Under the pieces are notes generated by a model, which saw only the letters and a program-made list of their open reading frames with translations, was not told the origin of the DNA and searched no databases. Shown in pieces: positions 1 to 45,839 of a stretch of 64,000 nt of DNA (position 1 is its first letter; each line of letters opens with the position of its first letter). The DNA is from Polyangium jinanense (GTDB lineage: Bacteria; Myxococcota; Polyangia; Polyangiales; Polyangiaceae). The stretch is from positions 124,001 to 188,000 of the forward strand of contig NZ_JAGTJJ010000009.1 of assembly GCF_028435365.1 (NCBI RefSeq). The letters run 5' to 3'. The position numbers and the translations under genes were made by a program.

Positions 1-1
1 A

Positions 2-1177
2 GGCGCGATCACCCCGCTCGGCGATTCCTGGCCCGCGTCGAGGGACGCGCTCGCCGAGGGCCGATCCGCGGTCGGCCCCGTCAAACATTTTGACGTCGAA
101 GGATATCCCTCGCAGGTCGCGGCGGGTGTTTCCTTCCCGCTCGAAGAAGCCGAAGATCGCCGCCTCGCGCTCGCGCGGCGCGCCGCAGACGAGGCGTGGG
201 CCGAGGCAAAGGAGAACGCCGCGCCCTCGCGAATCGGCGTGTTCGTTGGCGCCGAGAGCGGCCGGGCCACGTACGAAACGATCTTCGCGCTCTCCCGCGC
301 GGCGGGCGGCGGCGCGTGCTTCGATCACGCGCGCTTCGGCGAAGATGCGCGGGGCCTCGCGACGTCCGTCCACGCGGCCGCGGTCTCGCCGGCCGCGGTC
401 GCGTCGGCGCTCGCGGCGCGGATCGGCGCTGAGGGGCCCGTGGAAACGATCTCCCTCGCCTGTGCCTCCGGCGCGGCTGCGATCGTCTCGGCCACGCGGG
501 CGATCCGGCTCGGGCTTTGCGACGTCGCGCTCGCGGGCGGCGTGGGCGCGGACGTCGATCCGTTCATGCTCGTAGGATTCGGGTTGCTCGGCGCGCTGAG
601 CGCGCGTGGCGTCTCGTGCCCGTTCGACGTGCGGCGCGACGGTTTCGTCGTGGGCGAAGGCGCGGCGTTCGTGGTGCTCTCGGCGTCTCCTGGCGACGAG
701 CCACGCGCCGAGATCCGAGGGGCGATGCGCACGCTCGACGCGCATCACCTCACGGCGCCCGATCCGACGGGCGATGGGGCCGAGCGGGCCATGCGCGGCG
801 CGATCGAGGACGCGGGCCACGTGAAGATCGGCTACGTGCAGGCGCACGGCACGAGCACGCAGCTCAACGACGCCGTCGAAGCCGCGGCGATCCGGCGGGT
901 CCTCGGCGACGCGCTCCCGGACGTGCACGTCGGCTCGGTCAAAGGCGCGGTCGGGCACTGGATCGCGGGCGCCGGTGCGATCGGTTTTCTGTGCGCGCTC
1001 GAAGCCGTCGAGGAGGGCCTCTGTCTGCCGACAGCGGGCCTCACCGAGCCCGATCCCGCCTGCGTGTTGCCGCACGTCGTTGGCGCGGCTTTGCGAAAAC
1101 CTGTGGAAGCGGCTCTCGTCAACGCCTTCGCGTTCGGCGGCGCGAACGCGAGCCTCGTGGTGAGCCGATGCGCCTAG
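2..1177 (+). CDS. Beta-ketoacyl-ACP synthase (KS), 5' end missing
   Basis: Condensing enzyme of the FabF/type II ketosynthase family, joining an acyl chain to malonyl-ACP. The frame is open from base 2, where GAITPLG matches the usual ketosynthase N-terminus, so only a short N-terminal part lies outside the window. All three catalytic elements are visible: the nucleophile in SLACASGAAA, the first histidine in QAHGTST and the second in GAVGHWIAGAGAIG. The C-terminal NAFAFGGANASLVV is also typical. The stop overlaps the start of the next gene by 10 bp, so translation is probably coupled. It looks like the active half of a KS plus chain-length-factor pair with the gene at 1168. The substrate cannot be read from the sequence. 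Confidence 0.92.
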   Translation, partial: GAITPLGDSWPASRDALAEGRSAVGPVKHFDVEGYPSQVAAGVSFPLEEAEDRRLALARRAADEAWAEAKENAAPSRIGVFVGAESGRATYETIFALSRAAGGGACFDHARFGEDARGLATSVHAAAVSPAAVASALAARIGAEGPVETISLACASGAAAIVSATRAIRLGLCDVALAGGVGADVDPFMLVGFGLLGALSARGVSCPFDVRRDGFVVGEGAAFVVLSASPGDEPRAEIRGAMRTLDAHHLTAPDPTGDGAERAMRGAIEDAGHVKIGYVQAHGTSTQLNDAVEAAAIRRVLGDALPDVHVGSVKGAVGHWIAGAGAIGFLCALEAVEEGLCLPTAGLTEPDPACVLPHVVGAALRKPVEAALVNAFAFGGANASLVVSRCA

Positions 1178-2232
1178 ACGGAAAAGGCCTTCCCATCGTC
1201 GCCCTTTCGACCCTGACGACGGCGGGCCTCGCGGGCCGCGGCCTCGGCCGTCGCGTGCTCGAGAAGAACCTCCCTCTGCCGTGCGAGATCGCCACGCCCG
1301 TGCCGTCGCGGCCCGAGGACGTCCGGCAAAAAAAGCTCATGTCGCGCGCCGCGTGGTTCTCCGCGCTCGTCATGCGCGACGCGCTCGCCGAGGCGCGGTG
1401 GGACGAAGGGCGCGCCGAGATCGGCGCGTTCTTCGGCGTCGGCGCCTCGGGCGCGGAGATGGACGAGGTCGCCCGGCTCGTCGCGGCGAGCATGGAGGAC
1501 GGGCGGTTCTCGCTCGCGCGCTGCGGCCGCGAAGGCCTCGAGGTGTGCAATCCCCTGTTCGCGTTCCAGATCATGAACAACTTCACGCTCTGCCACGGGG
1601 CGATCCTCGAGGGCCTCGCCGGCCCGAACGCCGCGTTTTTCTCGCGCGGCACGGGCACGGTGACGGCGCTCGAAGAGGCGTGCGCCGCGATCGCGTCGGG
1701 TGCGTGTGAGCGCGCGCTCGTCGGCGGCGCGGACACGGCCCTGCACCCGGTCACGACGGCCGAGCTCGAACGCGAAGGCTTCTTGCGGCAAGGGCTCACA
1801 CCGGCCGAAGGCGCGGCCGCGCTCGCGCTCGCAGCCACGGCCGAGGCGCCGCTCGGCTACGTGGAGGCCGTGCGGGTGTTCACGGTCGATCGCCCCCGCG
1901 GCGCGCTCGTACCCCGCACGGGCGTGTTGCGCGACGCGGCCGTGCCTGCCGCGTTCGACGCGCTCGAGGATCAGCCTTGCGACGTCGTCGTGCTCGCGCC
2001 CTGGGGCGCGCCCGCGCGCGAGGCGCTCATGGATCTGCCGGAGGTGCTCGAAACGGAGGTCTCGGTCGACACCTCGCTCTCCCTCGGCGAATCCCTGGCC
2101 GCGACGCCGGCGCTCGCCTGGGCGCTCGCGCTCGATCTGCTCGTGCACTTCGACAAACCTCGTGCGCTCGTCCTCTCGGCGGGCCCGGACGGGGATCTCG
2201 GGGCGGTCGTGCTCGCGAAAGGGGGCGCGTGA
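1168..2232 (+). CDS. Ketosynthase-like protein without catalytic residues (chain-length-factor type)
   Basis: 354-residue protein with the thiolase/ketosynthase fold but no active site. The region where a KS carries its cysteine reads FFSRGTGTVTALEEAC, with glycine at the aligned nucleophile position. Neither the HGTxT motif nor the GHxxGAxG motif is present. Residual family features are GGADTALHPVTTAELEREG and the C-terminal LVLSAGPDGDLGAVVLA. Such degenerate partners act as chain length factors or structural partners of an active KS in type II polyketide, aryl-polyene and similar systems; that role is inferred here. The ATG overlaps the end of the preceding KS gene, and the stop shares one base with the next start. 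Confidence 0.8.
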   Translation: MRLDGKGLPIVALSTLTTAGLAGRGLGRRVLEKNLPLPCEIATPVPSRPEDVRQKKLMSRAAWFSALVMRDALAEARWDEGRAEIGAFFGVGASGAEMDEVARLVAASMEDGRFSLARCGREGLEVCNPLFAFQIMNNFTLCHGAILEGLAGPNAAFFSRGTGTVTALEEACAAIASGACERALVGGADTALHPVTTAELEREGFLRQGLTPAEGAAALALAATAEAPLGYVEAVRVFTVDRPRGALVPRTGVLRDAAVPAAFDALEDQPCDVVVLAPWGAPAREALMDLPEVLETEVSVDTSLSLGESLAATPALAWALALDLLVHFDKPRALVLSAGPDGDLGAVVLAKGGA

Positions 2233-3509
2233 TGGGCGCGCGTCGCGCGGTGATCACGGGCGTCGGCGCGGTCAGCGCGTTCGGCGTCGGGTACGAGGCG
2301 CTCGCGAACGGCCTCGCCGCGGGCCGCAGCGCGGTTGGTCCGATTCGCAGCTTCGACGCGCGCACGTTCCCCACGCGCGTGGCGGGCGAGGTGCCGATCG
2401 AGAAGACGGACGCGGTCTTCCTGGAAAAACACCGCGGCGTCCTGCTGCACGTCGGCGAGGCCGGGACGTGGGAAGACGCGGGCCTCCTCCGCGACCGCAA
2501 GGTATGCTTCGGCGTCGTCGCGGCGGCCGAGGCGTGGCGCCATGCGCGATGCGGGACGGCCGAGCGCAAGGGCACGCTCTCCATCGGCCTCGGGCTCGAA
2601 CAGGCGTTCCTGGAGGACCTCGCGGAGCAGCTCCACGAGGGCGAGCTCCGCGTCGGCGCTGGTGATCTCGCGGGCGGCGAGGGCGTTCGGTTCCGCTCGC
2701 GTGTCGACCTCACGGCCGAGAAGATCCGCGCTGTCGTGGGCCTCTCGGGCCGCGTCGCCGTGCACGCCTCGGCTTGCGCGGCGGGCGGCATGGCCGTCGC
2801 GCACGCGGCCTCGCTCATCGAGCGGGGCGCGGTCGACGTCGTCCTCTGCGGCGCGGCGGACTCGATGGTCAACCCGCTCGGCATCGGCGGCATGTCGCGT
2901 CTCGGCGCCCCCTCGCCGCGCGCCGAGGCCTCGGCGTGCAGGCCGTTCGATCGCCGGCGCGACGGGCTCGTCGTCGGCGAAGGCGCGGCGATGTTCGTCG
3001 TCGAGGAGGAATCCCGAGCGCGCGCGCGCGGCGCGGAGCCGCTCGCGGCCATTGCCGGCTACGCGACCACGCAGGACGCCTACCGCGCGACGGCGCCCCG
3101 CCCCGACGGATCCCGCGCGCTCGCGACCATGGAGCGCGCCGTTCGTCATGCCAACCTCACTGCTGCGGACATCGGGTACGTCAATGCCCACGGCACCGGG
3201 ACGCCGCTCAACGATGCGGCCGAGGCCAAGGCGATCCGCGCGCTTTTCGGCGACGTGCCCACGTCGAGCATCAAGGGCGCCGTCGGCCACCTGATGGCCG
3301 CCGCGGGCGCGATCGAGCTCGCCGCGTGCCTGCTCGCGTTCACGCGGGATCTGCTCCCCGGGACGGCGCATTTCGAGGAGCCGGATCCGGAGTGCCCGAT
3401 CAACGTGATCGGCCCGAGGCCCCTCGGCAAACGTGTCGACTACGTGCTCTCGAACTCGTTCGGGTTTGGCGGGCAAAACGTGAGCGTGGTCCTCGGGAGA
3501 CCCCGGTGA
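2232..3509 (+). CDS. Beta-ketoacyl-ACP synthase (second active KS)
   Basis: 425-residue condensing enzyme of the FabF type. Catalytic residues are visible: Cys182 in VHASACAAGG, His320 in NAHGTGTPLND and His353 in GAVGHLMAAAGAIE. It starts with AVITGVGAVSAFG and ends with NSFGFGGQNVSVVLG, both diagnostic. The ATG shares one base with the upstream stop (TGATG), and the downstream gene overlaps by 4 bp, so the KS genes form one translationally coupled operon. Together with the inactive KS-like gene at 3506 it repeats the active-plus-inactive arrangement of the first pair. Substrate and chain length cannot be read from the sequence. Confidence 0.94.
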   Translation: MGARRAVITGVGAVSAFGVGYEALANGLAAGRSAVGPIRSFDARTFPTRVAGEVPIEKTDAVFLEKHRGVLLHVGEAGTWEDAGLLRDRKVCFGVVAAAEAWRHARCGTAERKGTLSIGLGLEQAFLEDLAEQLHEGELRVGAGDLAGGEGVRFRSRVDLTAEKIRAVVGLSGRVAVHASACAAGGMAVAHAASLIERGAVDVVLCGAADSMVNPLGIGGMSRLGAPSPRAEASACRPFDRRRDGLVVGEGAAMFVVEEESRARARGAEPLAAIAGYATTQDAYRATAPRPDGSRALATMERAVRHANLTAADIGYVNAHGTGTPLNDAAEAKAIRALFGDVPTSSIKGAVGHLMAAAGAIELAACLLAFTRDLLPGTAHFEEPDPECPINVIGPRPLGKRVDYVLSNSFGFGGQNVSVVLGRPR

Positions 3510-4696
3510 ACCACGCGGGCCGCATGGCCGTCACGGGGTTTGCCCTGCGCACCCCACTCGGTGACGACGCCGCGGCCGTGCTCCGGAGGCTCCTCGCCGG
3601 CGAGCGCGCGGCGGCCCCGAACGCCCATTTCGACGCGAGCACCTACGCCTGCCGCCTCGCCGCCACGATCCCCGGGGCTCCCCGGCCGACGAAGCACCGC
3701 AAATTCGTCAAACGGATGGGGCTCTTCGGCATGGAGGTCGGGGCCGAGGCCCTCGCCCGCTCGGGCGCACCCGCGAAAGGCGCGCGGCTCGGGCTTTTTT
3801 GCGGTTATGGAGGCCTGCGCGCGCACTGGGACGATCTGATGCCCGTGCTCGAACGGCAGGCGGGCGACGCGCGTGCGACGGGCGCATGGGCGCAGGGTTT
3901 TTCCTTGTTGCACCCGTTCTGGATGTTGTTTCACCTGTCGAACAACGCGCACGCGCTCCTGTCGATCGACGTCGACAGCAAGGGCGACGGCACGACCACA
4001 GCGGGCTCGAATGCGGGGGCGCAGGCGCTCCGCTCGGCCATCGTCGCCCTCGCCATGGGGAGCGTCGATGCGGCGCTCGTCTTCGCGTACGACTCGCTCG
4101 TCGAGCCAGAGACGATTCTGTCGCTCGGCGTGTCGGGCGCCGCGACGAAGGCGGCCACGCCCGCGGCGGTCGTGGCCCCGTACGACGAGCGCGCGGCGGG
4201 GATCGTGCCGGGCGAGGCGGCCGCGGCCGTCGTGCTGGAGCGGCCCGAGGATGCAGGAGAGCGAGCGATTTCGTTCGTCTCGGCCGCGGCAACGGCCGAT
4301 GGCGCCGTGGACTTTCCCACCCCGCGCGCGATCGCCTCCCTCGCGGCCGCTCTCTCCGCGGGTGACACGATCGTCGACGGCGCCGCGCTCGCCTCGCCCG
4401 TGCGCGACGCGGCTGAACGCGCGGCCCTCGCCGACGTGCTCGGCCCCTCGGCCACGCTCCTCGCGTTGACCGCTTCCACGGGCCAGCTCGGCGGCGCGAC
4501 GGCGGTCGTGCAGGCGATCCTGCTCGCCGAGGCGCTCCGCGCGGGCACGCTGCCGCCCATCGCGGGCCTCGATCGTCCCGCCGAAGGCCCACTCCGCCCG
4601 CTCGTGCGCGCCGAGGAGACACGCTCTCGCTCGGCATTGGCCCTCTCGGCGGGCATGCCGGGGCTCGCGGGCGCCCTGCGCGTGGAGGTTCCATGA
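3506..4696 (+). CDS. Ketosynthase-like protein without catalytic residues (second pair)
   Basis: 396 residues if it starts at the GTG that overlaps the previous stop (GTGA); an ATG 18 bases downstream is the alternative. The N-terminus [13 protein letters not shown] is a clear ketosynthase start. The nucleophile region reads [17 protein letters not shown] with no cysteine. HGTGT is absent, and the second histidine motif is altered to [12 protein letters not shown]. It is therefore probably a chain-length-factor or scaffold partner for the KS at 2232. It overlaps the fabG-like gene by 4 bp (ATGA). Confidence 0.78.
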
Positions 4697-5448
4697 GCGA
4701 CACCAAGGAGCGATCCCGCGTCGCGCTCGTCACGGGCGCCTCGCGCGGCATCGGACGCGCCATTGCGGAGGCGCTCGGTCGGCGCGGATATGCCGTCGCC
4801 GTCGATTATCGAAACGACGAGGACGCGGCGCAAAAGACCGTGGCCGCCGTGGAGGCGCTCGGCGCGCGGGCCGTCGCTCTCCGCGCCGACGTCTCGCGCC
4901 CCGCGGAGGTCGCCTCCCTCTTCGAGCAGGCCGAAAACACGCTCGGGCCGCTCGACGCGCTCGTCTGCAATGCCGGCGTCACGCGCGACGGCCTCCTCGG
5001 GGCGAGCACCGACGACGATTATAATCACGTCTTCGAGACGAACGCCGCGGGCGTGGTGCATTGCTGCCGCGAGGCCGCGCGGCGCTTCATTTCGCGGCGG
5101 CGCGGCGCGATCGTCAACGTCTCCAGCGTGGCCGCGCAGCGCCCGGGCCGCGGGCAATCGCTTTATGCCGCCTCGAAGGGCGCCGTCGAGTCGTTCACCC
5201 GCGCGCTCGCGGTCGAGCTTGCGCCGCGCGGCGTGCGTGTGAACGCCGTCGCGCCGGGCCTCGTCGAGACCGACATGACGGCCGAGCTCCGGGCCATCGC
5301 GCCGGAGGAACTCGCGAAACGCATCCTGCTCAAGCGCGTCGGCCGCCCCGAGGAAATCGCGGCGGTCGTCGCTTTCCTCGTCTCGGACGAGGCGAGCTAC
5401 GTGACAGGACAGATATGGAACGTGGACGGCGGATTCAAGCTGGAATGA
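4693..5448 (+). CDS. fabG: 3-oxoacyl-ACP reductase (SDR family)
   Basis: 251-residue classical short-chain dehydrogenase. The NADPH-binding motif [13 protein letters not shown] lies at residues 14-26 and CNAG at 92-95. The catalytic residues are Ser145, Tyr158 and Lys162 ([12 protein letters not shown]), and the end motif is [13 protein letters not shown]. In this operon it would reduce the 3-keto group made by the upstream ketosynthases. The symbol denotes the family; this is a pathway-specific copy and not necessarily the housekeeping fabG. It overlaps both neighbours by 4 bp (ATGA), so it belongs to the KS operon. Confidence 0.92.
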
Positions 5449-6110
5449 GCGGCCCGGGCGGGATCGGGGGCCCGGGAATGCTGGCGTGGCTCGAAACGCG
5501 GCGATCGCGCCGAGAATTCGAGGACACGCCCGTGCCGAAGGAGGTACTCGCCCGGCTCGTGCAAGCCGCGATCACCGCGCCCTCCAACACGAACCGGCAG
5601 CCGTGGCGGTTCACGGTCGTCACGGCCCCGGACAAACGCAAGCAAATCGCCGCCGCCGTGCGGGCACGGGCCGAGGAGATCAAGGCGATCATCCACCGTG
5701 GCCACCATGCCGAGGATTTTGCCAACTACGGCGATTTTTTCCACGAGCCGCTGGAGAGCGCCGCGGCCATCGTGGTGCCACAATGGCGCGATTACCCCGA
5801 CCTCATCGCCGACCTCATCACCTCGGGCGGCGGGGATCCTTCGCAGTACCATACGGCTCGCAGCATGCAGGCCGAGCTCTGCTCGACGAGCGCGGCCGTG
5901 ATGGCGATGCTCCTCCAGGCGCACGCCGAGGGCCTCGGCGCCTGCTGGATGGCGGGCCCGATGATCGCGAAGCCCGAAATCGAGGGGCTGCTCGGCATCC
6001 GGGAGCCGTTCCGGATGGTCGGCGCCGTGGCGCTCGGATACCCCGTGGGCGACGCGCCGCCGCCCGGGCGAAAGCCGATCGATCGCGTCGTGCAATGGGT
6101 GGAGGACTGA
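5445..6110 (+). CDS. Nitroreductase-family FMN oxidoreductase
   Basis: 221-residue protein of the nitroreductase fold. The flavin-binding [13 protein letters not shown] lies near the N-terminus and [12 protein letters not shown] follows; [11 protein letters not shown] near residues 165-175 and [11 protein letters not shown] near the end are also typical. Family members reduce nitro groups, enones or flavins with NAD(P)H, and some act in natural product pathways. The ATG overlaps the fabG stop by 4 bp, so it is the last gene of the KS operon and may act on the assembled chain (inference). A convergent gene begins 6 bp beyond its end. Confidence 0.87.
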
Positions 6111-17769: not shown

Positions 17770-18174
17770 ATGTCCGCAGCCAACGACCCCGAGATCGCCG
17801 CGCAAGTCCGCCAGATCGTCGCCGAGGCCCTTGCCCTCGATCCGGCCACGGTGAAGAACGAATCCTTGCTCATGGCCGATCTCGGCGCCGAGTCGCTCGA
17901 TTATCTCGATATCGTGTTCAAGATCGAGCGGACGTTCGGCATCCAGATCACGCGGGGCGAGATGCAAAAGGCCGCGCGTGGCGACATGAGCGAGGAGGAG
18001 TTCGCGCCGGGCGGCGTCGTCAGCGAGAAGGGCCTCGAACGGCTGCGCGAGCTGATGCCGGAGGCGAAGGACCGCATCGTTCCGGGGCTCAGGCCCGTGC
18101 AGATCCTGGGGCTCTTCTCGGTGCAGACGTTCGTGAACATGGTGGAAGCGAAGAAGCGGGGCGTGGTGGTCTGA
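17770..18174 (+). CDS. Elongated acyl carrier protein
   Basis: 134 residues, longer than the usual ~80. The phosphopantetheine site is Ser42 in LGAESLDYLD, followed by VFKIERTFGIQI, as in ACPs that feed specialised lipid pathways. After the ACP core there is a ~60-residue C-terminal extension with a helical part (GLERLRELMPEAKDR) and a final hydrophobic stretch (LRPVQILGLFSVQTFVNMVE). It ends 13 bp before the convergent five-gene operon that begins with the radical SAM region. It could serve that operon or the ketosynthase block at 1-5448 (inference). Confidence 0.85.
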   Translation: MSAANDPEIAAQVRQIVAEALALDPATVKNESLLMADLGAESLDYLDIVFKIERTFGIQITRGEMQKAARGDMSEEEFAPGGVVSEKGLERLRELMPEAKDRIVPGLRPVQILGLFSVQTFVNMVEAKKRGVVV

Positions 18175-18187
18175 CAAACGGAGCGGG

Positions 18188-18931
18188 TCAAAGCCCCCCG
18201 TCGATCACCACCTGCCCGCCCGTCATGAACGAGTTTTCGTCCGAGACGAGCCACGCCGCGAGATCCGCGACCTCCTCCACCGTGCCGAGCCTGCCGAGCG
18301 CCGCCTGCGCCACGTAACTCTCGACGCGGTGCTTGGGCAATCGCGCGGACAAACCCGTTTCGAGCAGGCCTGGGACCAGGCAATTCACCGCGATTCCATA
18401 TCGGCCGACCTCCTTCGCGAGCGCCAGGGAAAACCCGACGAGCGCCGCCTTCGAGGCCGCGTAGTGGACAGGCGCGTCGAGGACGCGGTCCGCGCCGAAC
18501 GAGCCAACGTTCAGGATGTGGCCTTTTTTGGACCGGATCATCGATTTCAACGCCGCGCGCGAGAACAGATACGGGCCCTTCACGTTCGTATCCATCGCCG
18601 CGTCCCACTCCGCCTCCTCCAGGAGCGCGATCGGGAGGACCTGCGTGAGCGCCGCGTTGTTCACGAGCACGTCGATGCCGCCGTACGCCGTCTCGACCGC
18701 CTTCACCGCGGCCGTCACGTGCGCGGCGTCCGAGACCGAGCCCTTGAGCACGAGCGGCGCCGCGCCCGCAGCTTCGAGCAGCGCGCGCGTTTCCTCGGCC
18801 GCGTCGTCGCGCTCGCGGTACGTGAACGCCACGCGCGCCCCTTCCCGCGCGAAGGCCAATGCAATCGCGCGGCCGAGGTTTCTCGAACCGCCCGTCACGA
18901 GGCAACGTTTTCCCGAAAGACGCGCGCTCAT
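18188..18931 (-). CDS. 3-oxoacyl-ACP reductase-like SDR
   Basis: 247 residues. Rossmann motif VTGGSRNLGRAIALAF, NNAALTQ, catalytic Ser in NVGSFGADR and catalytic HYAASKAALVG with Tyr-x-x-x-Lys, and the end FMTGGQVVIDGGL. Likely a FabG-type ketoreductase or related NAD(P) enzyme acting in the cytoplasm. It is the last gene of a five-gene minus-strand operon; its ATG overlaps the radical SAM gene stop by 4 bp. Unlike the SDR at 20969, its catalytic triad is intact. Confidence 0.9.
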   Translation of the reverse strand: MSARLSGKRCLVTGGSRNLGRAIALAFAREGARVAFTYRERDDAAEETRALLEAAGAAPLVLKGSVSDAAHVTAAVKAVETAYGGIDVLVNNAALTQVLPIALLEEAEWDAAMDTNVKGPYLFSRAALKSMIRSKKGHILNVGSFGADRVLDAPVHYAASKAALVGFSLALAKEVGRYGIAVNCLVPGLLETGLSARLPKHRVESYVAQAALGRLGTVEEVADLAAWLVSDENSFMTGGQVVIDGGL

Positions 18932-20415
18932 CGGGTCCTCCCGCGGCCGAGCTGCACGAGCGGCGTTGCGGGACGCGGGGAAAAACGCGCGTCGCGCTCG
19001 CGGTAGAGGACGTTGTAGGCGCAGGAGGGGACGTTCGAGCCGTCGGGGCCGGGCATGCCGACGCAGCAGCGGCGAATGCGATCCGTGTCGAACGTCTCCT
19101 CGTCCATGTGGGTGTGTACGTAAATGGCCTTCGTGTGCATCTCGGCGATCCGCATGCGAATGGCCTCGTCCGTGCCCGGCGCGAACATGCGCTCGACGAG
19201 GTCCTTCAGGGCGGCGAGCACCGCGTCGGTCTCCTCGCATTCGATGTCGCCCGCCCAGAGGCGATTCAAGACGTCCACGAGGATCTGCTCCATCTCGGGG
19301 CCGGGCACGATGTAGAGCTCCTGCGAGAGGAGGCTGCGCAGGTCGTCGCGGCTCATGAAGCGGGTGAACGGGAGCCAGTGGCCGTCCTTCAAGCGAAGCA
19401 GATAGGCAATCTGGTAACAGAGCGGATGCGCGAGCGGGGACGGGACGAAATCGCGGACCGCGATCCGGCCGCCCGATTGGCGCTCGATGTCGGAGAGCGC
19501 GTCAAACGCGGTGTAGCGCGCGCTGCGCTCGAAGCTCGCGCCGCTCTGGCCCGTGAACGTCATGGGGTGGAATTCGACGGAGCGGATGAAATCCTTCGAG
19601 AGCGCGAGGTCGATGAAGGCCGCGACCTCGTGGTCGTTCACGCCACGCGCGAGCACGGGCAGGAGCGTCGTGGCCACGGCGTGTTTTTCCAGGAGATCGA
19701 GGATCTTGAGCTTGGCATTCAGGTGGTGGCCGCCGAGCATCTTTTTGTTTGCCTCGGGCTCGAAGGAGTCGAACGAGAGAATGACGCGGGCGTCGATACG
19801 GGCGAGGCGTTCGAGCAGCGCTTCATCGCGGAGGAAACGCAGGCCGTGCGTGGAGATGGTGACACGCCGGACGCCGGCCGAAACGCACATCTCGACGAGG
19901 CGCTCGAATTCGGGGTGTTGCGTGGGCTCGCCGCCCGTGATGTTGATGATGCGGCGGTTGACGCTCGGGGGCTTCGCTCCGACAAGCGGAGCTGCGCCCC
20001 CGACCCCCCCGGGCGCGACGTGGTCGAGGTGCCGCAGGATCGCCGCGAGCTCCCCCTCGGACATGTGGTAGGCGCCCTCGTTTTTGTTATGCGTGTAGCA
20101 AATGGGGCAATCGAGGTCGCATTTCGAGGTGATCGGGACGACCGGGAGGTGATTGCGTTGCTCGTGCTGCTCGCAGGGGCCGCAATCGTAGGGGCAGCCG
20201 GCGGAGATGGGGCGCGGCGAGGCGGGGCGTTCGAGGACGGAGGCGTGCCGGACGGTGTCCTCGTACCAGTCGGCGGAGTTCGATACGAGTACCTCTTCGG
20301 GTCCGTGCAGCTCGCAGCGCTTGCGCAGGACGATCTTGCCAGAGGCGCGCACGGTCTCGGCCGGAACCGTGCGCTTGCACGTCCCGCAGAGGCCCATCGT
20401 GGCGCCGAGGATCAC
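18928..20415 (-). CDS. Radical SAM protein with N-terminal zinc-ribbon-like region
   Basis: 495 residues from the GTG at 20415, which gives a 4-bp overlap (GTGA) with the preceding stop, as for the other genes of this operon; ATGs at 20439 and 20454 would add 8 or 13 residues. An N-terminal cysteine pair (CGTCKRT) and a second group (GCPYDCGPCEQH) precede the radical SAM motif CDLDCPICY (Cx3Cx2C, [4Fe-4S] site). A SAM-binding region follows (ITGGEPTQHPEF). A C-terminal cysteine pair (RRCCVGM) may bind another cluster. The layout resembles the branch containing archaeal tetraether synthase/MJ0619-type enzymes by my recollection. The substrate is unknown. Confidence 0.85.
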   Translation of the reverse strand: MILGATMGLCGTCKRTVPAETVRASGKIVLRKRCELHGPEEVLVSNSADWYEDTVRHASVLERPASPRPISAGCPYDCGPCEQHEQRNHLPVVPITSKCDLDCPICYTHNKNEGAYHMSEGELAAILRHLDHVAPGGVGGAAPLVGAKPPSVNRRIINITGGEPTQHPEFERLVEMCVSAGVRRVTISTHGLRFLRDEALLERLARIDARVILSFDSFEPEANKKMLGGHHLNAKLKILDLLEKHAVATTLLPVLARGVNDHEVAAFIDLALSKDFIRSVEFHPMTFTGQSGASFERSARYTAFDALSDIERQSGGRIAVRDFVPSPLAHPLCYQIAYLLRLKDGHWLPFTRFMSRDDLRSLLSQELYIVPGPEMEQILVDVLNRLWAGDIECEETDAVLAALKDLVERMFAPGTDEAIRMRIAEMHTKAIYVHTHMDEETFDTDRIRRCCVGMPGPDGSNVPSCAYNVLYRERDARFSPRPATPLVQLGRGRTR

Positions 20416-20972
20416 GCCTTCGTCTGTTCCGTCCGCCATTGCCGCTTCAGCCATTTCCGGACCGCGAAATCGGTCGTGTGGATGAGGAAAAACCCGAAGA
20501 CGAGGTTCGTCACCCACGTGGCCCAGAGGGCCGGGGTGTATCGCGCGACGGGCGGAAACGGCCGGTGCGCGAGGTTCACGTTGAGCGTGGGCGGCGTCGC
20601 GTAATAAGCGAGCACGACCATCGCGGCGAGGAAGGCGAACGAGGCCCACGGCGCCCAGCGCGGCAGGCCCGAGCGGCGGACCTCGAGCGCACCGACGACG
20701 AGCGGCGTGACGTGCACGAGGACCGAGGTCCAGGAAGTCGTGCGGGTCTCGCAGAGGTCGAAGAGGTAACCCCAGAGGCCGGCGCCGATATGGAAGGAAA
20801 AACCAAAGTGGATGAGCGCGGGTTTGCGGAGGAGCACGCCGACGGCGAGGACGGCCGTGGCCACGTGGCAGGCGTAGAGCATCTCGGGCAGGAGCCCGTT
20901 CGGCATTTTCTCGATGACCGCGTGGAGCACGAGGACGACGAAGAGCAGGAGCCCGACCCAGCGCGGCGTCAC
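20412..20972 (-). CDS. Polytopic membrane protein in radical SAM operon
   Basis: 186 residues from a GTG that overlaps the previous stop (GTGA). At least five hydrophobic helices: VGLLLFVVLVLHAV, MLYACHVATAVLAVGVLL, ALIHFGFSFHIGAGLWGYLF, VLVHVTPLVVGALEV, WASFAFLAAMVVLAYYA and WATWVTNLVFGFFLI. Histidines lie in or near several helices (CHVAT, HFGFSFH), which may bind metal or haem. No recognised family. The position between the SDR and the radical SAM gene argues for a membrane-linked step in the same pathway. Confidence 0.78.
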   Translation of the reverse strand: MTPRWVGLLLFVVLVLHAVIEKMPNGLLPEMLYACHVATAVLAVGVLLRKPALIHFGFSFHIGAGLWGYLFDLCETRTTSWTSVLVHVTPLVVGALEVRRSGLPRWAPWASFAFLAAMVVLAYYATPPTLNVNLAHRPFPPVARYTPALWATWVTNLVFGFFLIHTTDFAVRKWLKRQWRTEQTKA

Positions 20973-21682
20973 AGGCCCCCCGTGATGGGCAAGACGGAGC
21001 CGGTCATCCAGCGATTGTGGAGCGCGAGGCGGGTGATCGCGCGGGCCGCCTCGACGGGCGTGCCGACGCGCTGGAGCGCGCTGTACCGCTTGTAATCGGC
21101 GAGGCGGGCCGGATCGAGGCTTTCCGAGATGCCGCCGCCGAGCGCGCCGAGGAGGACGAGGTTCACCCGGACATTCTTCGGGCCGAGCTCCTTGGCGAGG
21201 GCCTGCGTCATACCGAGCCGCGCGGACTGGGTCGCGGCGAAATGCACGCCAGAGGGGATCTTCGCGATGCCGTCGAGCGCCGCCGTGAGGACGACGTCGC
21301 CGGGCCGACCTGCGAGCCGCGCCGCGAACGATTGCATCGCGACGTACACGGAGCGGACGTTGACCGCGTGCATCTCGTCCCAGAGCGCGTCGGTGACATC
21401 CGCGAGCGCGCCCGCGTCGGAGACGACGGCGGAATGCACGAGCAGGTCGGGCGCGGCGTCCTCGGCGTCGAGCGTGTCGAAGAGGGCGCGGATCGCCGCG
21501 GGTTCGGCGAGGTTCGTCCGGAAAGACCGCGCGCCCGTCTCGGCGGCGAGGGATTCTGCGATGGCGGCGCCGCGCTGGTACGTGAACGCGACGCGGGCCC
21601 CCGCGGCCGCGAGCGCGCGCACGACCTCGCGGCCCACGTATCCGCTGCCCCCGAGCACGAGCGCGCGCCGGACGTCGGTCAC
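20969..21682 (-). CDS. SDR-fold protein with altered catalytic residues
   Basis: 237 residues from a GTG in a GTGA overlap. The Rossmann part is intact (LVLGGSGYVGREVVRALAAA). However, the catalytic segment reads VHFAATQSARLG, with Phe in place of Tyr and Gln in place of Lys in the usual YxxxK. The end motif WMTGSVLPITGGL is normal. It may therefore be a non-catalytic NAD(P)-binding partner, or catalyse a different reaction. It sits in a five-gene operon beside an intact SDR. Confidence 0.82.
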   Translation of the reverse strand: MTDVRRALVLGGSGYVGREVVRALAAAGARVAFTYQRGAAIAESLAAETGARSFRTNLAEPAAIRALFDTLDAEDAAPDLLVHSAVVSDAGALADVTDALWDEMHAVNVRSVYVAMQSFAARLAGRPGDVVLTAALDGIAKIPSGVHFAATQSARLGMTQALAKELGPKNVRVNLVLLGALGGGISESLDPARLADYKRYSALQRVGTPVEAARAITRLALHNRWMTGSVLPITGGL

Positions 21683-22776
21683 GACGCTGCCTCCAGGCCG
21701 AGCTCGAACCTGAGCGTTTGATCCTCGCGCACGTGCCAGATCTTTTGATCGATGTAGTAATGGTGGAAGAAAATGCCCCAGTACATCACGAGGAAAAGAT
21801 CGGGGAGCGCGGCGCCGCGCGAGACGGGCGCGAGGCTCGGGAGGACGCCACGGCCCGCGTTGAGCGCGAGGTATCCGAGCGAGACGAGGACGAACGCGGC
21901 ATACGCCACGAGCGGGCGGCGGCCGAATCGGGCCGCGAGCGAGCGCGCGTCAGAGCCCTCGAAACGGCGCCGGGAGACCGCCGCGATGATGCCGAGGTAA
22001 TTCACGCCGTGCACGATTCCCCCGACGACCGTGGACGCCATGAACGCCTGCTCGGGGTCCTCGGGGCGCGGGACAAGAGGCTCGAAGGAGCCGACGACGA
22101 ACAGCGCAAAGAGCTGGAGGCCGAGTGCTGGGCCGAGCAAATACAGGAGCGGACGTTCGTCCTCGTCGCGGAAGCGGGTTCGTCGGTAAATGCCATACAC
22201 GATCGTCGCGACGAGGAGCAGGCCGAGGAGAGCGAGCCCGAGGAGGGCGAGAAAGCGCGGCGGTTCCGCGGGCAAACCGAGGAAGATACGATTTTGCGGG
22301 TGGCCGAACGAGAAGAGGCCAAACGCGAGCCAGAGGGCGCCGTGCAAGAAGAGGCGATCGGTCTTGCGTGCCGGGAGCGCGGTGCGCGCGTGGTGCTGGT
22401 AGATGGCGAGGACGCCGTACGATTGCCGGACGGCATGGTGAAAACTCCAGAGCGCCGCGACGAGAAGGAAAAGATCCATCGGCGCGCGCAGGCCCGTGAC
22501 GCGCGTGAGAGACCACGCGGCGAGGCCCGGCAGGAGAAAGGCGAGGCTCAGGACGAGCAGGCGGCCGCGGCGCGCGCGGAAGCCCGGGTCGAGGTAGGTG
22601 CGGGCCCAGGTGGCCGCGAGGTGCGGGCCGTCGACGAGGACGAGGAAGGCCACGAAGAGGGGTACGATCGCCCGCGGGACGGCGAGCGCGAAGGCCCCGA
22701 CGAGCGCGGCGAGGAGCGCGCTGCCGAAGAAAAACGCGAGGTCGAAGCGGCGACCCCCGATCCATCCGGCCTTCAC
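21679..22776 (-). CDS. Histidine-rich polytopic membrane protein, first gene of operon
   Basis: 365 residues from a GTG start. Around eight or nine membrane helices are visible. Conserved-looking histidine motifs lie at helix edges: DGPHLAATWARTY, FHHAVRQSYGVLAIYQHH, VHGVNYLG and FFHHYYIDQKIWHVRED. Such clusters often hold a metal centre in membrane oxidases, desaturases or dioxygenases, but I do not recognise the family. It is the first of five genes joined by 4-bp overlaps. The preceding 390 bp hold a tandem repeat array. Confidence 0.8.
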   Translation of the reverse strand: MKAGWIGGRRFDLAFFFGSALLAALVGAFALAVPRAIVPLFVAFLVLVDGPHLAATWARTYLDPGFRARRGRLLVLSLAFLLPGLAAWSLTRVTGLRAPMDLFLLVAALWSFHHAVRQSYGVLAIYQHHARTALPARKTDRLFLHGALWLAFGLFSFGHPQNRIFLGLPAEPPRFLALLGLALLGLLLVATIVYGIYRRTRFRDEDERPLLYLLGPALGLQLFALFVVGSFEPLVPRPEDPEQAFMASTVVGGIVHGVNYLGIIAAVSRRRFEGSDARSLAARFGRRPLVAYAAFVLVSLGYLALNAGRGVLPSLAPVSRGAALPDLFLVMYWGIFFHHYYIDQKIWHVREDQTLRFELGLEAAS

Positions 22777-23167
22777 GGGACCAGCCTACCACGGCGAAGG
22801 TGAGCCCCATTCGAGCTTTCGCGCGTCCCAGCGACGCGGTCGCCGAGGGCGACGACGCGACCGGAAGGGCGCGTCCACGCGACCGGAAGGTGCGTCCACG
22901 CGACTCGAAGGCGCGTCCACGTGAGGGGAGGAACACGTCCACGCGACTCGAAGGCGCGTCCACGCGACTCGAAGGCGCGTCCACGCGACTCGAAGGCGCG
23001 TCCACGCGGCTCGAAGGCGCGTCCACGCGACCCGAAGGCGCGTCTACGTGAGGGGAAGAACACGTCCACGCGACTCGAAGGCGCGTCCACGCGACTCGAA
23101 GGCGCGTCCACGCGACTCGAAGGCGCGTCCACGCGGTATGCCACGCTCGAACGGCGTGGCGAGGCCT
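22777..23167. other. Intergenic region, mostly filled by the tandem repeat array
   Basis: 391 bp between two minus-strand genes: the operon starting at 22776 and the ABC ATPase ending at 23168. Nearly all is tandem repeat (22849-23136). The 72 bp next to the operon start (22777-22848) is unique and must hold any promoter; no clear -35/-10 is visible. Both strands are open in frame because the 21-bp unit is a multiple of 3. The encoded repeats (STRLEGA; DAPSSRV) have no start or context supporting a gene. Confidence 0.7.
22849..23136. repeat. 21-bp tandem repeat array with two 43-bp variant units
   Basis: Unit consensus CGCGTCCACGCGACTCGAAG followed by G (21 bp). Clear full copies start at 22870, 22891, 22955, 22976, 22997, 23018, 23082 and 23103. 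A 43-bp variant replaces the unit twice, starting at 22912 and 23039, with the shared sequence GTGAGGGGA followed by AACAC. The two variants are 127 bp apart, which is one 43-bp unit plus four 21-bp units, so there is a higher-order pattern. There are no unique spacers, so it is not a CRISPR array. It lies in an intergenic gap. Confidence 0.9.
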
Positions 23168-23848
23168 TCACAGGACCATTCTACCATGCCGCAGGCGGAG
23201 GACGCGCGGGAACGAGGCGAGCAGGTCCGTGTCGTGCGTGCAGACGACGACGGCTGCGCCTCGGGCGTTCGCGCGGCCGAGGAGCGAGACGACGGACGCG
23301 GCGCTGGCCTCGTCGAGGTTCGCCGTGGGCTCGTCGGCGAGCACGACGGCCGGGTCGTTGACGAGCGCGCGGGCGATGGCGACGCGCTGCATTTCACCGC
23401 CCGAGAGGCGCGTGACGTCGTGCCGCATGCGCGCTTCGAGGCCAAGCTCGGCGAGGAGGGCCTCGGCCCGCGCGAGGGCCCGGCCGTGATGGCCGTGGAG
23501 CTTCCAGTGCGGGAGCGCGACGTTGTGGCGCACGTCGAGCGCCGGCAGGAGGTGAAAGGTCTGAAAGACGAGGCCAATGCCTTCGAGGCGCGCGCGGGCG
23601 CGCTCGCGACGGCTCATGCGCCGGACGCTCTTGCCGCGCATCCTGACCTCGCCCGAAACATCCGCGTCGAGCAGGCCGAGGACGGCGAGCAGGGTGCTCT
23701 TACCCGAGCCGCTCGGGCCGGCAATGGCGGCGAGCTCGCCCTCGGCGAGCGTGAACGAGACGTCGTCGAGGGCGCGGACGTCGAGGGCCGGCGTGCGAAA
23801 GGTCCGCGTGACCGAGGCGAGCTCGTAAAGCACGGGCGCATTCGCCAT
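23168..23848 (-). CDS. ABC transporter ATP-binding protein (LolD/MacB type)
   Basis: 226 residues. Walker A GPSGSGKST at about 44-52, Q-loop FQTFHLLP, signature LSGGEMQRVAIARAL, Walker B AVVLADEPTANLD and switch His in VVCTHDTDLL. This is the MacB/LolD class, which pairs with FtsX-like permeases to move lipoproteins, peptides or other substrates out of the inner membrane. GGAGG is 8 nt before this ATG; an upstream in-frame ATG overlaps the permease stop but sits too close to the ribosome binding site. It follows the permease gene directly. Confidence 0.93.
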   Translation of the reverse strand: MANAPVLYELASVTRTFRTPALDVRALDDVSFTLAEGELAAIAGPSGSGKSTLLAVLGLLDADVSGEVRMRGKSVRRMSRRERARARLEGIGLVFQTFHLLPALDVRHNVALPHWKLHGHHGRALARAEALLAELGLEARMRHDVTRLSGGEMQRVAIARALVNDPAVVLADEPTANLDEASAASVVSLLGRANARGAAVVVCTHDTDLLASFPRVLRLRHGRMVL

Positions 23849-23850
23849 GG

Positions 23851-25029
23851 TCATTCCCTCCGGAGCTCGACGGCCGGCTCGGCGCGCGAGGCGAGAATGG
23901 CCGGGACGATGCCCGCGAGGAGCGTGGTGGCGAAGAGGACGAGGGCCGGGATCAAAAACGAGCGGAGCGTGATGCTCGGGAGGACGACGAACCCCTGGTG
24001 GGAGAAAATGGGGTTGTCCTGGAAATACCTGCAGAGGGCATACCCGAGGCCGCTGCCGAGGACGGTGCCGATCCCGCCGACAAGCAGGGCCTCGAAGAGG
24101 TGGATGAGAAAAATTTCGCGCCGGCTGAAGCCGAGCGCGGCGATGGTGGCGATGCGGCGGCGCTCGTGGAGGACGTGGATGTAGAGCAGCGCGAGGACGG
24201 GGATCATGACCGCGACGACGACCATCGTGGTCGAAATGGCGGAGAGGGCGCGGTTGCCGTCGATGGCGTTCTTGACGAACGTCTGGGCCTCCCACCAGGT
24301 TTCGACCTTCTGATCGGGCGCGAGCTCGGCGATGCGCTTCGCCCATTCGCCGGCGCGGGCGTCGTCCGTCGAGAAGACGCGGATCTCGCTGGAGACGCGG
24401 TGTTTGCCGAAGAGGTCGCGCAGGGCGTCGAGGGGGACGAAGAGCTCGTAATCGGCGCGGAAGCCGCCCGAGCCGCGGAGTACGCCGACGACGCGGAAGA
24501 CGGCGGAGACCATTCGAACGTCGTCGCCGGCCGAAAAAGGCAAGGCGACCTTGATCGAGGAGCCGACGTGCGCGTCGAGCTGCTCGGCGAGCTTGGCACC
24601 GAGGACCGCGGGCCGCTCGTCGCCCGCGGCCATGCAACGGCCCTCCGCGAGCTCCTGGCAAAATCCGGCGGCGCGGTCTTCCGCGACGGGATCGATGCCC
24701 GCGATGCTCGCGGAGGTCGTGCGTTCGCCGTGGAAAAAAGAGCCCACGTGGACGAGCCGGATCGTGGCGGCGCGGACGAAGGGTTCTTGGGTGATCCGCG
24801 CGGCAAGGGCCTCGGCGCCTTCGAACGTGCCGCCGGACTTCGCCGTGACGCGGACGTGGCCCGTGTCGCGCGAGAGGCCCTTTTCGCGGAGCTCCGCGGT
24901 GTATCCTTCGATGTTGGCGGTGTTCGGGATCTGAAAGCCGAGCCCCGCCGTCACCGCAGCGAGCAGGAGGACGAACGAGACCCGGCTGCGGACGAGCGTG
25001 CGATACGCGAGGTAAAAGAGGACCCTCAC
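23851..25029 (-). CDS. FtsX/MacB-type ABC transporter permease
   Basis: 392 residues, starting at a GTG that overlaps the previous stop (GTGA). There is an N-terminal transmembrane helix (FVLLLAAVTAGLGFQI), a large extracytoplasmic MacB-like domain (about 40-260) and three C-terminal helices (MVVVAVMIPVLALLYIHVL, ALLVGGIGTVLGSGLGYAL and LIPALVLFATTLLAGIVPAI). It pairs with the ATPase at 23168 to form a mechanotransmission-type exporter with four helices per subunit. The substrate is unknown. It is preceded by a gene for a small MYXO-CTERM protein that may be a substrate or partner (inference). Confidence 0.9.
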   Translation of the reverse strand: MRVLFYLAYRTLVRSRVSFVLLLAAVTAGLGFQIPNTANIEGYTAELREKGLSRDTGHVRVTAKSGGTFEGAEALAARITQEPFVRAATIRLVHVGSFFHGERTTSASIAGIDPVAEDRAAGFCQELAEGRCMAAGDERPAVLGAKLAEQLDAHVGSSIKVALPFSAGDDVRMVSAVFRVVGVLRGSGGFRADYELFVPLDALRDLFGKHRVSSEIRVFSTDDARAGEWAKRIAELAPDQKVETWWEAQTFVKNAIDGNRALSAISTTMVVVAVMIPVLALLYIHVLHERRRIATIAALGFSRREIFLIHLFEALLVGGIGTVLGSGLGYALCRYFQDNPIFSHQGFVVLPSITLRSFLIPALVLFATTLLAGIVPAILASRAEPAVELRRE

Positions 25030-42923: not shown

Positions 42924-44690
42924 ATGCGCACGTTCATCGATGTTCTCCGCGAAAACACGGTCCATGCTGACCGGGCGGTCACTTTCGTGCGCACGAACGG
43001 CCAGGAGCGCCGCGTCGTGTATCCGGAGCTCTGGGCCGAGGCGAGCCGCCGCGCCCGCGCGCTCCAGGCGCTCGGCCTGTCGAAGGGGGATCGCGTCGCG
43101 CTGATCCTCCCGGAGCCCGACGAGTTCGTCCTTTCCTTCATCGGTGCCCTCACGGCAGGCCTCGTCGCCGTGCCGATGTACCCGCCCGCGACCCTCGCCA
43201 AGCTCGAAGCCTACGGCGACACCGTGCGTCACGTGCTCGCGGCGTCCGGCGCGCGTGTGGTCGTCACGAACGACGCGCTGCGCCCGCTCATCCAGGAGCA
43301 CCTGCTCGGCACGCAGAGCGCGGACACGCGGCTCGTGCTGGAGCGCGAGCTCGGCGCGATCGATCCGGGCTCGGCGCACGCCACGTTGCCCGACGTTCGC
43401 GGCGAGGATCTCGCGTTCCTCCAGTTCACCTCGGGTTCGACCTCGCGCCCCAAGGGCGTGATGGTCACGCACGAGAACCTGAGCGTGAACAGCCACGCGA
43501 TCATGTTCGACGGGCTGCGCTCGACGCCCGAGGATCGCGGCGTCTCGTGGCTGCCGCTCTACCACGACATGGGCCTCATCGGCTTCGTGATCGCGCCGGT
43601 CTACGCGCTCGTGCAGGTGATGTTCCTGCCGACGATGTCCTTCATCCGCAGGCCCTCGCTCTGGCTCGACGCGATTCACCGCTTCCGCGGCACCATCACG
43701 TTCGCGCCGAACTTCGCCTTCGCGCTGGCGACACGCGCCGTGACCGACAGCCAGGCTGGTAACTGGGATCTCTCGTGTATGCGCGCGCTCGGCTGCGGTG
43801 CCGAGCCGATCCAGGCCGACGTGCTGCGCGCCTTCCTCGCGCGGTTCGCGAAAAACGGCCTCTCGCCCGAGAGCATCCTGCCCTGCTACGGCATGGCCGA
43901 GGCGACGCTCGCCGTGACGTTCCACGATCTCGGCAAGCCGCTCGCAACCGACCGGATCGACCTCGCCACCATGAAAAACGGCAAGGCCGAGCCCGTGAAA
44001 GACGAGACGCCTGCGCTCGAGCTCGTCTCGTGCGGGCGCCCCTTCCCCGGGCACGAGCTTTTGATCGCGGGCCCCGACGGCGCGCCGCTCGGCGAACGAA
44101 AGGTCGGCGAGATCTGGCTGCGCGGGCCGAGCGTGACCGCGGGGTATTTCGGCGATCCCGAGGCGACGAGCGAGACGTTCGGCGGGGGCTACCTGCGCAC
44201 GGGCGACCTCGGATACCGTGCCGACGGCAATGTCTACATCTGCGGCCGTTCGAAGGACCTCATCATCCTGAACGGGAAAAACCATTACCCGCAGGACATC
44301 GAGCGCGTGGCCTCCACGGTCGACGGCATCCGCGACGGGCAATGCGTGGCCTTCGCGCGGCGCGGCGCGAGCGGCGCCGAGGAAGCCGTGCTCGTGGCGG
44401 AGTCGCGGCGCCTCGGCGAGGCGAAACGCGCGCTCATCGAGGCGGTCACGCACGCGGTGCGGGCCGAGCTCGGCGTGCAGCTCGCCGAGGTCGTGCTGAT
44501 CAAGCGCGGCACGCTACCGAAGACGTCGAGCGGCAAGGTGCGCCGCCGCGAGACGAAGATGCGTCTCGAAAACGGGCAGCTCGAGCTCGTGGGGGAGCAG
44601 GGCGAGGACCCGAGCGCGTCGTTCGATTCCCCCGCCGTCCCTTCTCCCCGCGCGCCCGCCCGGGAGACCGAAACCCGAGGAGCTCTCTGA
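42924..44690 (+). CDS. Fatty acyl-AMP ligase (FAAL)
   Basis: 588 residues of the FAAL class, which activates a fatty acid as acyl-AMP and loads it onto an ACP rather than CoA. Motifs: LAFLQFTSGSTSRPKGVMVTH (P-loop), LPLYHDMGLIG, CYGMAEATLAVTF, YLRTGDLGYRADGNVYI and GRSKDLIILNGKNHYPQDIE. The TSGSTSRPKG loop and the 'D..I..GKNHYPQDIE' end are typical of FAALs. It is the first gene of a four-gene operon with an ACP two genes downstream; the FAAL stop shares one base with the next start. Confidence 0.92.
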   Translation: MRTFIDVLRENTVHADRAVTFVRTNGQERRVVYPELWAEASRRARALQALGLSKGDRVALILPEPDEFVLSFIGALTAGLVAVPMYPPATLAKLEAYGDTVRHVLAASGARVVVTNDALRPLIQEHLLGTQSADTRLVLERELGAIDPGSAHATLPDVRGEDLAFLQFTSGSTSRPKGVMVTHENLSVNSHAIMFDGLRSTPEDRGVSWLPLYHDMGLIGFVIAPVYALVQVMFLPTMSFIRRPSLWLDAIHRFRGTITFAPNFAFALATRAVTDSQAGNWDLSCMRALGCGAEPIQADVLRAFLARFAKNGLSPESILPCYGMAEATLAVTFHDLGKPLATDRIDLATMKNGKAEPVKDETPALELVSCGRPFPGHELLIAGPDGAPLGERKVGEIWLRGPSVTAGYFGDPEATSETFGGGYLRTGDLGYRADGNVYICGRSKDLIILNGKNHYPQDIERVASTVDGIRDGQCVAFARRGASGAEEAVLVAESRRLGEAKRALIEAVTHAVRAELGVQLAEVVLIKRGTLPKTSSGKVRRRETKMRLENGQLELVGEQGEDPSASFDSPAVPSPRAPARETETRGAL

Positions 44691-45574: not shown

Positions 45575-45577
45575 GAC

Positions 45578-45829
45578 ATGAGTGAGAAGCGCGATCTGCT
45601 CGAGATGTTCAAGACCGTGGCCGCGCGCGTCGACAAGCGCCCCTTCCCGAACGTGACGCCTGCGTCCAAGATCAGCGAGCTCGGCATCGACTCGCTCTCC
45701 GTGATGCAGATCGTCGGGGAGCTCGAGACCGAGCTCGGGATCGTGATCCCGGACGAGGACCTCGTCGAGCTCGTCACGGTCGGCGATCTCTGCAAGAAGG
45801 TGGAGGCCCGGCTCGCCGCCGGCGGCTGA
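45578..45829 (+). CDS. Acyl carrier protein
   Basis: 83 residues. Phosphopantetheine-binding Ser39 in ELGIDSLSVMQIVGELE. Helical ACP fold, short acidic end. It lies 3 bp after the methyltransferase gene and 10 bp before the ketosynthase gene, so it is the dedicated carrier of this operon. Likely loaded by the FAAL. Confidence 0.94.
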   Translation: MSEKRDLLEMFKTVAARVDKRPFPNVTPASKISELGIDSLSVMQIVGELETELGIVIPDEDLVELVTVGDLCKKVEARLAAGG

Positions 45830-45839
45830 TCCCACCCCC

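Follow-up and report, generated by a model that had tools for sequence, protein, structure and literature searches.

An operon for a tetraether synthase-like radical SAM enzyme in Polyangium jinanense and its possible place in an undescribed lipid or lipid-like pathway

Results and Discussion

A 64,000-nucleotide stretch of the Polyangium jinanense genome (contig NZ_JAGTJJ010000009.1, positions 124,001 to 188,000; hereafter the window) carries a five-gene operon encoding a radical S-adenosylmethionine (SAM) enzyme related to the archaeal tetraether synthase Tes, two short-chain dehydrogenases/reductases (SDR1 and SDR2) and two membrane proteins (MEM1 and mem2). The operon is genuine. On balance we favour the view that it forms one arm of a dispersed, undescribed pathway for a lipid or lipid-like product, an arm that tailors acyl chains by radical formation of a C-C (or C-S) bond and acts at the membrane; our confidence in the exact bond formed is lower than in the reading as a whole. 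We place it with acyl chains and membranes because of the company its genes keep, the kinship of the enzyme with Tes and the TMEM164-like predicted fold of mem2. No description of the gene set was found in open-licence PMC papers; supplementary files may list members as Tes homologues.

Organization and conservation of the operon

The operon lies on the minus strand, from 22776 down to 18188, in the order MEM1–SDR2–mem2–radical SAM–SDR1, with products of 365, 237, 186, 495 or 503, and 247 residues, respectively. An earlier note on this DNA had all the genes overlapping by 4 bp and four of them starting with GTG. Three junctions (21679-21682, 20969-20972 and 18928-18931) overlap unambiguously by 4 bp, but at the fourth, between mem2 and the radical SAM gene (20412-20415), this is so only if the latter begins at GTG 20415; from ATG 20439, the start (MADG...) matched by counterparts in relatives, the overlap is 28 bp. 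The count of four GTG starts, with one ATG besides, likewise holds with GTG 20415. The note had looked to other genomes for conservation, and the same order was kept in all seven Polyangium-group genomes compared (window included).

The records nearest to the operon are from Polyangium, and the nearest genome is the one we call G001. In P. fumosum (L044) mem2 was present, though missed by the automated gene calls; genes outside the window were called with a simple in-house gene caller, whose calls of individual starts and of small genes are uncertain. In another Polyangium-group locus (L036, G006:C1:3244052-3245356) an in-frame stop interrupts the radical SAM gene, and the call for SDR1 came out short.

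The radical SAM enzyme and its metal ligands

The enzyme matched PF04055 and PF23545 in Pfam (Radical_SAM and the HMPTM zinc ribbon) and, with E 1.6e-50, GDGT-MAS of M. jannaschii (MJ0619; PDB 7TOL/7TOM). Its best NCBIfam matches, NF045702 and NF045646, were both below cut-off: the Tes model NF045702 gave 221.5 bits against a curated cut-off of 450, and the TrsS model gave 215.8 bits against 490. A second type of Tes-like enzyme encoded in G001 (B type, below) scored higher on TrsS (250.7 bits) than on Tes (241.8 bits). The NF045702 cut-off was passed in none of 41 genomes from the same family of bacteria and in 3 of 14 control genomes; sub-cut-off matches occurred in all 14 controls, so the Tes score alone tells little. 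Grouping with known non-lipid enzymes had been named as grounds for abandoning a lipid role. No characterised enzyme of that kind was encountered, and the other best-scoring family is TrsS, for which we know of no function.

Ligands were compared in a 100-row alignment of 89 family rows, 10 other bacterial Tes homologues and MJ0619, with the metal ligands of GDGT-MAS (PMC9433317) as reference; ligand counts cover 86 family rows, after removal of three that were deep or long-branched. The N-terminal Cys-rich region followed by CDLDCPICY that the earlier note described was seen, and the N-terminal CxxC...CxxH and CPYDCGPCEQH motifs were present as well. The domain order is that of archaeal Tes. 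The rubredoxin-type ligands C9, C12, C33 and H36 of GDGT-MAS correspond to C10, C13, C34 and H37 of the window enzyme, and C73, C77 and C80 of the N-terminal cluster, with a conserved His that the alignment suggests is H83, correspond to C74, C78, C81 and H84. The radical SAM CX3CX2C motif is formed by C99, C103 and C106. Cysteines of the C-terminal domain align too: C338, C455 and C470 are kept in the window protein and are putative ligands of the C-terminal cluster.

Other positions differ from archaeal Tes. The labile ligand Met439 is replaced by His in the window enzyme (H434) and in 86 of 86 family rows. The archaeal M439A variant remains active (PMC9433317), so this swap alone leaves function undecided. 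Tyr459, conserved in 1000 archaeal homologues (PMC9433317), is M454 in the window enzyme and Ile, Val or Met in 17 of 17 rows of the window clade. In GDGT-MAS, 5'-deoxyadenosine is bound by Arg210 and Gln268 (PMC9433317); both are likewise replaced in the window clade. Bacterial relatives, unlike archaeal Tes, are often linked to type II fatty acid synthase (FAS-II) genes. The window enzyme falls within the Tes/GDGT-MAS superfamily but, with 221 bits where 450 are required and with both Met439 and Tyr459 replaced, outside archaeal-type Tes. Placement in the tetraether synthase/MJ0619 branch, which the note had suggested, thus stands for the superfamily and fails for membership in archaeal Tes. 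A 17-residue in-frame insertion in the window protein (19955-20010, within VAPGGVGGAAPLVGAKPPSVNRR) is absent from six other Polyangium genomes.

Two types of Tes-like enzyme

In a tree made by a quick method, with long branches near the outgroup flagged, the family split into clade A (59 rows, support 97), which holds the window enzyme, and clade B (27 rows, support 87, not starred). Tyr459 is lost in A but kept in 27 of 27 rows of B, and Arg210 and Gln268 are kept in B. Relatives were sought with two peptide patterns in one genome per species; of the 439 found, the best 80 yielded 75 loci. Of the 74 loci with trimmed sequences of the family, 38 encoded more than one Tes-like enzyme. When paired enzymes were typed by their closest tree row in BLAST, A and B were both present in 34 of these 38 and two A sub-types in the other four; the A gene was upstream of the B gene in 23 of 24 adjacent same-strand pairs.

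The loci are found in Polyangium, Sorangium cellulosum, four Massilia species and Janthinobacterium, in a betaproteobacterium with a complete genome (CP019169; L063), and in Acidobacteria, Rokuibacteriota, Planctomycetota, Verrucomicrobia, Elusimicrobia, Riflebacteria and Firmicutes, many of these being metagenome-assembled genomes. In Myxococcota the family (E up to 1e-70) was present in 12 of 282 genomes, 11 of which had at least two copies. At least two were also present in 10 of 10 further genomes, which had been picked for already positive loci, and a positive genome usually has two or three. Massilia frigida and M. atriviolacea each gave one A-like and one B-like match. The system is thus accessory and patchy, usually with at least two Tes-like enzymes.

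A more familiar role for such an enzyme would be synthesis of branched glycerol dialkyl glycerol tetraethers (brGDGTs) by joining the iso-fatty tails of ordinary phospholipids or diethers. The superfamily is the same, and brGDGT synthesis was suggested for bacterial Tes homologues, of which 456 were reported, by Zeng et al. (PMC8941075) and proposed also for Solibacter (PMC10087280). We nevertheless regard this role as decidedly unlikely here. A separate Tes homologue elsewhere in G001 scores better than the ortholog of the window enzyme (350 against 196 bits), and such an additional, higher-scoring homologue, at 322 bits or more (322.8 to 361.6), occurs in 21 of 41 same-family genomes, G001 included. 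In addition, the window clade has other residues in place of Met439 and Tyr459, the presence of a linked FAS-II set suggests that a dedicated chain is made, and the operon contains no ether-lipid gene.

This additional homologue (L116-L125) shares with the window enzyme the superfamily and the rubredoxin and radical SAM ligands, and keeps Tyr459, but it is encoded elsewhere in the genome. In all 10 aligned rows it lacks the N-terminal cluster ligands and has Ala in place of Met439. These differences may bear on a proposed brGDGT role.

Linkage to a FAS-II gene set

Near Tes-like relatives of several phyla a recurring set was often found: FabZ, ketosynthase (KS)-like, KS, FabG, nitroreductase and acyl carrier protein (ACP) genes, together with aminotransferases. 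Among the 75 loci, many of which are short, clusters of Tes-like enzymes were present in 74, SDRs in 66, class-III aminotransferases in 40, ACP in 36, KS in 27, nitroreductase in 26, FabZ in 23, mem2 in 20, a second radical SAM enzyme in 20 and MEM1 in 15. The 28 non-Polyangium loci of at least 20 kb were counted apart; SDRs were present in all 28, ACP in 20, aminotransferase in 18, KS in 16, nitroreductase in 16, mem2 in 13 and MEM1 in 9. One locus (L058) contains in a contiguous row MEM1, SDR, mem2, the Tes-like gene, FabZ, two KS genes, SDR, nitroreductase and ACP, which ties the families of the window operon to the FAS-II set.

As read from G001, the Polyangium gene set is split in three. 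The window operon is the first part. The second comprises the B-type enzyme, an SDR, FabZ, four KS or KS-like genes, FabG and nitroreductase; its KS-to-nitroreductase stretch is window 1-6110, 12 kb from the operon end, and by comparison with G001 the B-type gene would lie about 0.7 to 2.3 kb left of the window edge, with FabZ also just left of it. The third part, on another contig of G001, comprises an A-type enzyme, an SDR, an aminotransferase and SDR2. The ACP gene, which belongs to the same recurring set, ends 13 bp from the operon end, and its phosphopantetheine domain scored 31.8 bits (cut-off 20.8).

This gene company also suits a diffusible natural product, such as a FAS-II polyene or amino-acyl compound, with the Tes-like enzymes carrying out another radical reaction (dehydrogenation, methylation or cyclisation) and no membrane lipid being made. 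KS genes are paired with genes for Cys-less KS-like proteins, no classical enoyl reductase turned up in the labelled families, related loci contain PigE-like class-III aminotransferases, the spread in Myxococcota is patchy as described above, and an ABC exporter lies nearby. We consider such a product possible if rather unlikely: the TMEM164-like mem2 and the kinship with GDGT-MAS count against it, and in L063 an LPG_synthase_TM protein among the neighbours and a weak zinc-dependent phospholipase C match suggest lipids.

Candidate clusters for ladderanes in anammox bacteria likewise join FAS-II, non-canonical KS and radical SAM genes (PMC2649909, PMC4790861). FabZ, KS, non-canonical KS, ACP and radical SAM genes are shared with them (PMC4790861), whereas the set described here has a Tes-type radical SAM enzyme, a nitroreductase, an SDR pair and aminotransferases. 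'Ladderane' clusters have also been called in Myxococcota and other non-anammox phyla, with function unknown (PMC9902471), and some of them may be the gene set described here. A ladderane-like polycyclobutane pathway is disfavoured and in our view barely credible. A full-length relative of the enzyme was found in 0 of 17 inferred anammox genomes, one of which had a partial generic radical SAM match (58 bits); these were 17 of the 50 genomes with a hydrazine synthase alpha match, taken for having one or two copies in a frame of 809-844 residues. No phytoene-desaturase-like protein was seen among those scanned, although L063 has a pyridine-nucleotide FAD oxidoreductase.

Membrane proteins

The HHxxRQ and HHYYIDQ motifs that the earlier note divided between two membrane proteins both exist, but both are within MEM1; mem2 has no HH motif. 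Over four predicted helices of MEM1, residues H52, H114, Q118, H256, H339 and D343 are invariant and may form an intramembrane metal site. The MEM1 model had no clear fold match in the PDB and the window protein no Pfam match over cut-off; weak PEMT matches were seen in 8 of 56 relatives. The predicted fold of mem2 matches TMEM164 (9lw1), of the ATGY acyltransferase superfamily, over nearly the whole length. There was no significant sequence match between the two. PF14808, the sole match of the window protein at E up to 1, gave 10.8 bits against a cut-off of 25, and matches at E up to 1 were seen in 2 of 21 mem2 members. In a low-probability alignment the invariant C35 and H87 are in register with a Cys and a His of bacterial TMEM164-family proteins; C123 and H181 are what we take to be the catalytic positions of TMEM164. 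From its predicted fold, mem2 is a candidate cysteine-dependent acyltransferase. Together with the linked FAS-II genes, the TMEM164-like fold backs a lipid or acyl role, in line with the membrane lipid that the note had suggested.

SDR proteins

The note's pairing of an intact with an altered SDR was borne out. The catalytic tetrad of SDR1 is N-S-Y-K, as in classical SDRs, and that of SDR2 is H-A-F-Q, which departs from the classical N-S-Y-K; the altered tetrad was found in 25 of 25 rows of the SDR2 clade.

SDRs and radical SAM enzymes occur in cofactor pathways too, and a quinone-like product had been the note's other suggestion. Nothing was found that points to a quinone-like molecule, and we consider this or another cofactor pathway very improbable: among the proteins scanned there was no aromatic-ring, prenyl or pterin enzyme, and although GDGT-MAS was initially labelled a pterin methylase, its structure argues against that (PMC9433317).

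Proposed pathway

Gene order, families, residue conservation, predicted folds and co-occurrence, as observed above, can be fitted to the acyl-tailoring and membrane reading in a scheme whose substrate, bond, order of steps and product would be as follows. The dedicated FAS-II (window 1-6110 and the ACP at 17770) would assemble a special acyl chain, carried by the set's own ACP. The A-type and B-type Tes-like enzymes would take hydrogen from an unactivated chain carbon, and formation of the new C-C (or C-S) bond would leave chains coupled or cyclised. SDR1 would reduce a keto group; SDR2 may bind nucleotide, with altered chemistry or a role as partner subunit. The acyl chain would pass to or from a membrane lipid by way of a cysteine thioester on mem2, MEM1 would take a further step, perhaps at its putative metal site, and export of the product may fall to the neighbouring ABC transporter. 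A bacterial membrane-spanning lipid synthase, Mss, is reported to share the catalytic architecture of Tes and to couple lipid tails (PMC13274423); we liken it to the present enzymes by that description.

A more specific version is speculative and unlikely to hold in full: the A/B pair, with His for the labile Met, would cross-couple FAS-II acyl chains into new bola or macrocyclic aminolipids of mesophilic aerobic bacteria, class-III aminotransferases supplying the amine heads and the TMEM164-like enzyme the placement in the membrane.

The role of bacterial relatives of tetraether synthase is left open in PMC8941075 and PMC9433317. The gene set makes this question concrete, with two distinct Tes-like enzymes, FAS-II, a probable acyltransferase and an exporter, and it occurs in cultured strains of Polyangium, Sorangium and Massilia. 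An environmental survey used Tes homologues in bacterial genomes to seek brGDGT producers, while cautioning that their role is unconfirmed (PMC11868695). If bacterial Tes-like enzymes do serve a pathway besides brGDGT synthesis, counts of Tes homologues may mislead as a guide to such producers.

Features of the window and neighbouring genes

Table 1. Coordinates of the operon, the linked FAS-II genes and the adjoining exporter genes in the window.
Feature	Position	Strand	Basis
Ketosynthase, Cys-His-His motifs, 5' end cut by window edge	2..1177	+	motifs by eye; KS cluster
Shortened KS-like protein without active-site Cys (chain length factor-like)	1168..2232	+	PF00109; read by eye
Ketosynthase with Cys-His-His motifs	2232..3509	+	PF00109, PF02801; TIGR03150 316 bits, below cut-off; read by eye
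KS-like protein without active-site Cys	3506..4696	+	PF00109; read by eye
FabG-type SDR of FAS-II set, tetrad C-S-Y-K	4693..5448	+	
Nitroreductase-family flavoprotein of FAS-II set	5478..6110	+	PF00881 E 1.8e-34
Convergent acyl carrier protein, C-terminal extension	17770..18174	+	PF00550
SDR1, classical 3-oxoacyl-ACP-reductase-like SDR	18188..18931	-	PF13561 E 6.9e-59; tetrad intact
Tes-like radical SAM enzyme, A type	18928..20439 (start GTG 20415 or ATG 20439)	-	PF04055, PF23545; 7TOL
mem2, TMEM164-fold membrane protein (predicted)	20412..20972	-	C35, S83, H87, N133 invariant
SDR2, SDR fold with altered tetrad	20969..21682	-	PF13561 E 2.9e-35
MEM1 membrane protein	21679..22776	-	56-row alignment; model pLDDT (predicted local distance difference test) 94.6
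21-bp tandem repeat array, 13.2 copies, between ATPase gene and MEM1	22855..23136	none	
ATP-binding cassette (ABC) transporter ATPase	23168..23854	-	PF00005
MacB/FtsX-type ABC permease, possible ancestral first gene	23851..25029	-	PF02687 + PF12704

The unit may exceed five genes. Three Polyangium genomes (L042, L043 and G6) have the permease and ATPase genes, in that order, ahead of MEM1, with a 4-bp overlap between the ATPase gene and MEM1, so the ancestral unit was probably one of seven genes, from 25029 to 18188. The permease gene precedes the ATPase gene also in strain 15x6 (L041). Against a seven-gene ancestor, two Polyangium genomes (L044 and G2) have no ABC genes upstream of MEM1. In the window and in strain 15x6 the ATPase gene and MEM1 stand about 390 bp apart, with 21-bp repeats in between; the array is bordered by two imperfect copies of the junction sequence (read by eye), and no similar repeat stretch was found in L042, L043 or L036.

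In the betaproteobacterial locus L063, whose cluster comprises at least 17 genes, a SPASM-type second radical SAM enzyme (2776-3783) adjoins a class-III aminotransferase, as in other loci (cluster in 20 of 75). The next gene (3786-4571) has the weak, sub-cut-off match to zinc-dependent phospholipase C, and its cluster is found in 9 of 75 loci. A second acyl operon in the window (42924-47081) encodes an AMP-dependent ligase, a cyclopropane synthase-like methyltransferase, an ACP and a ketosynthase.

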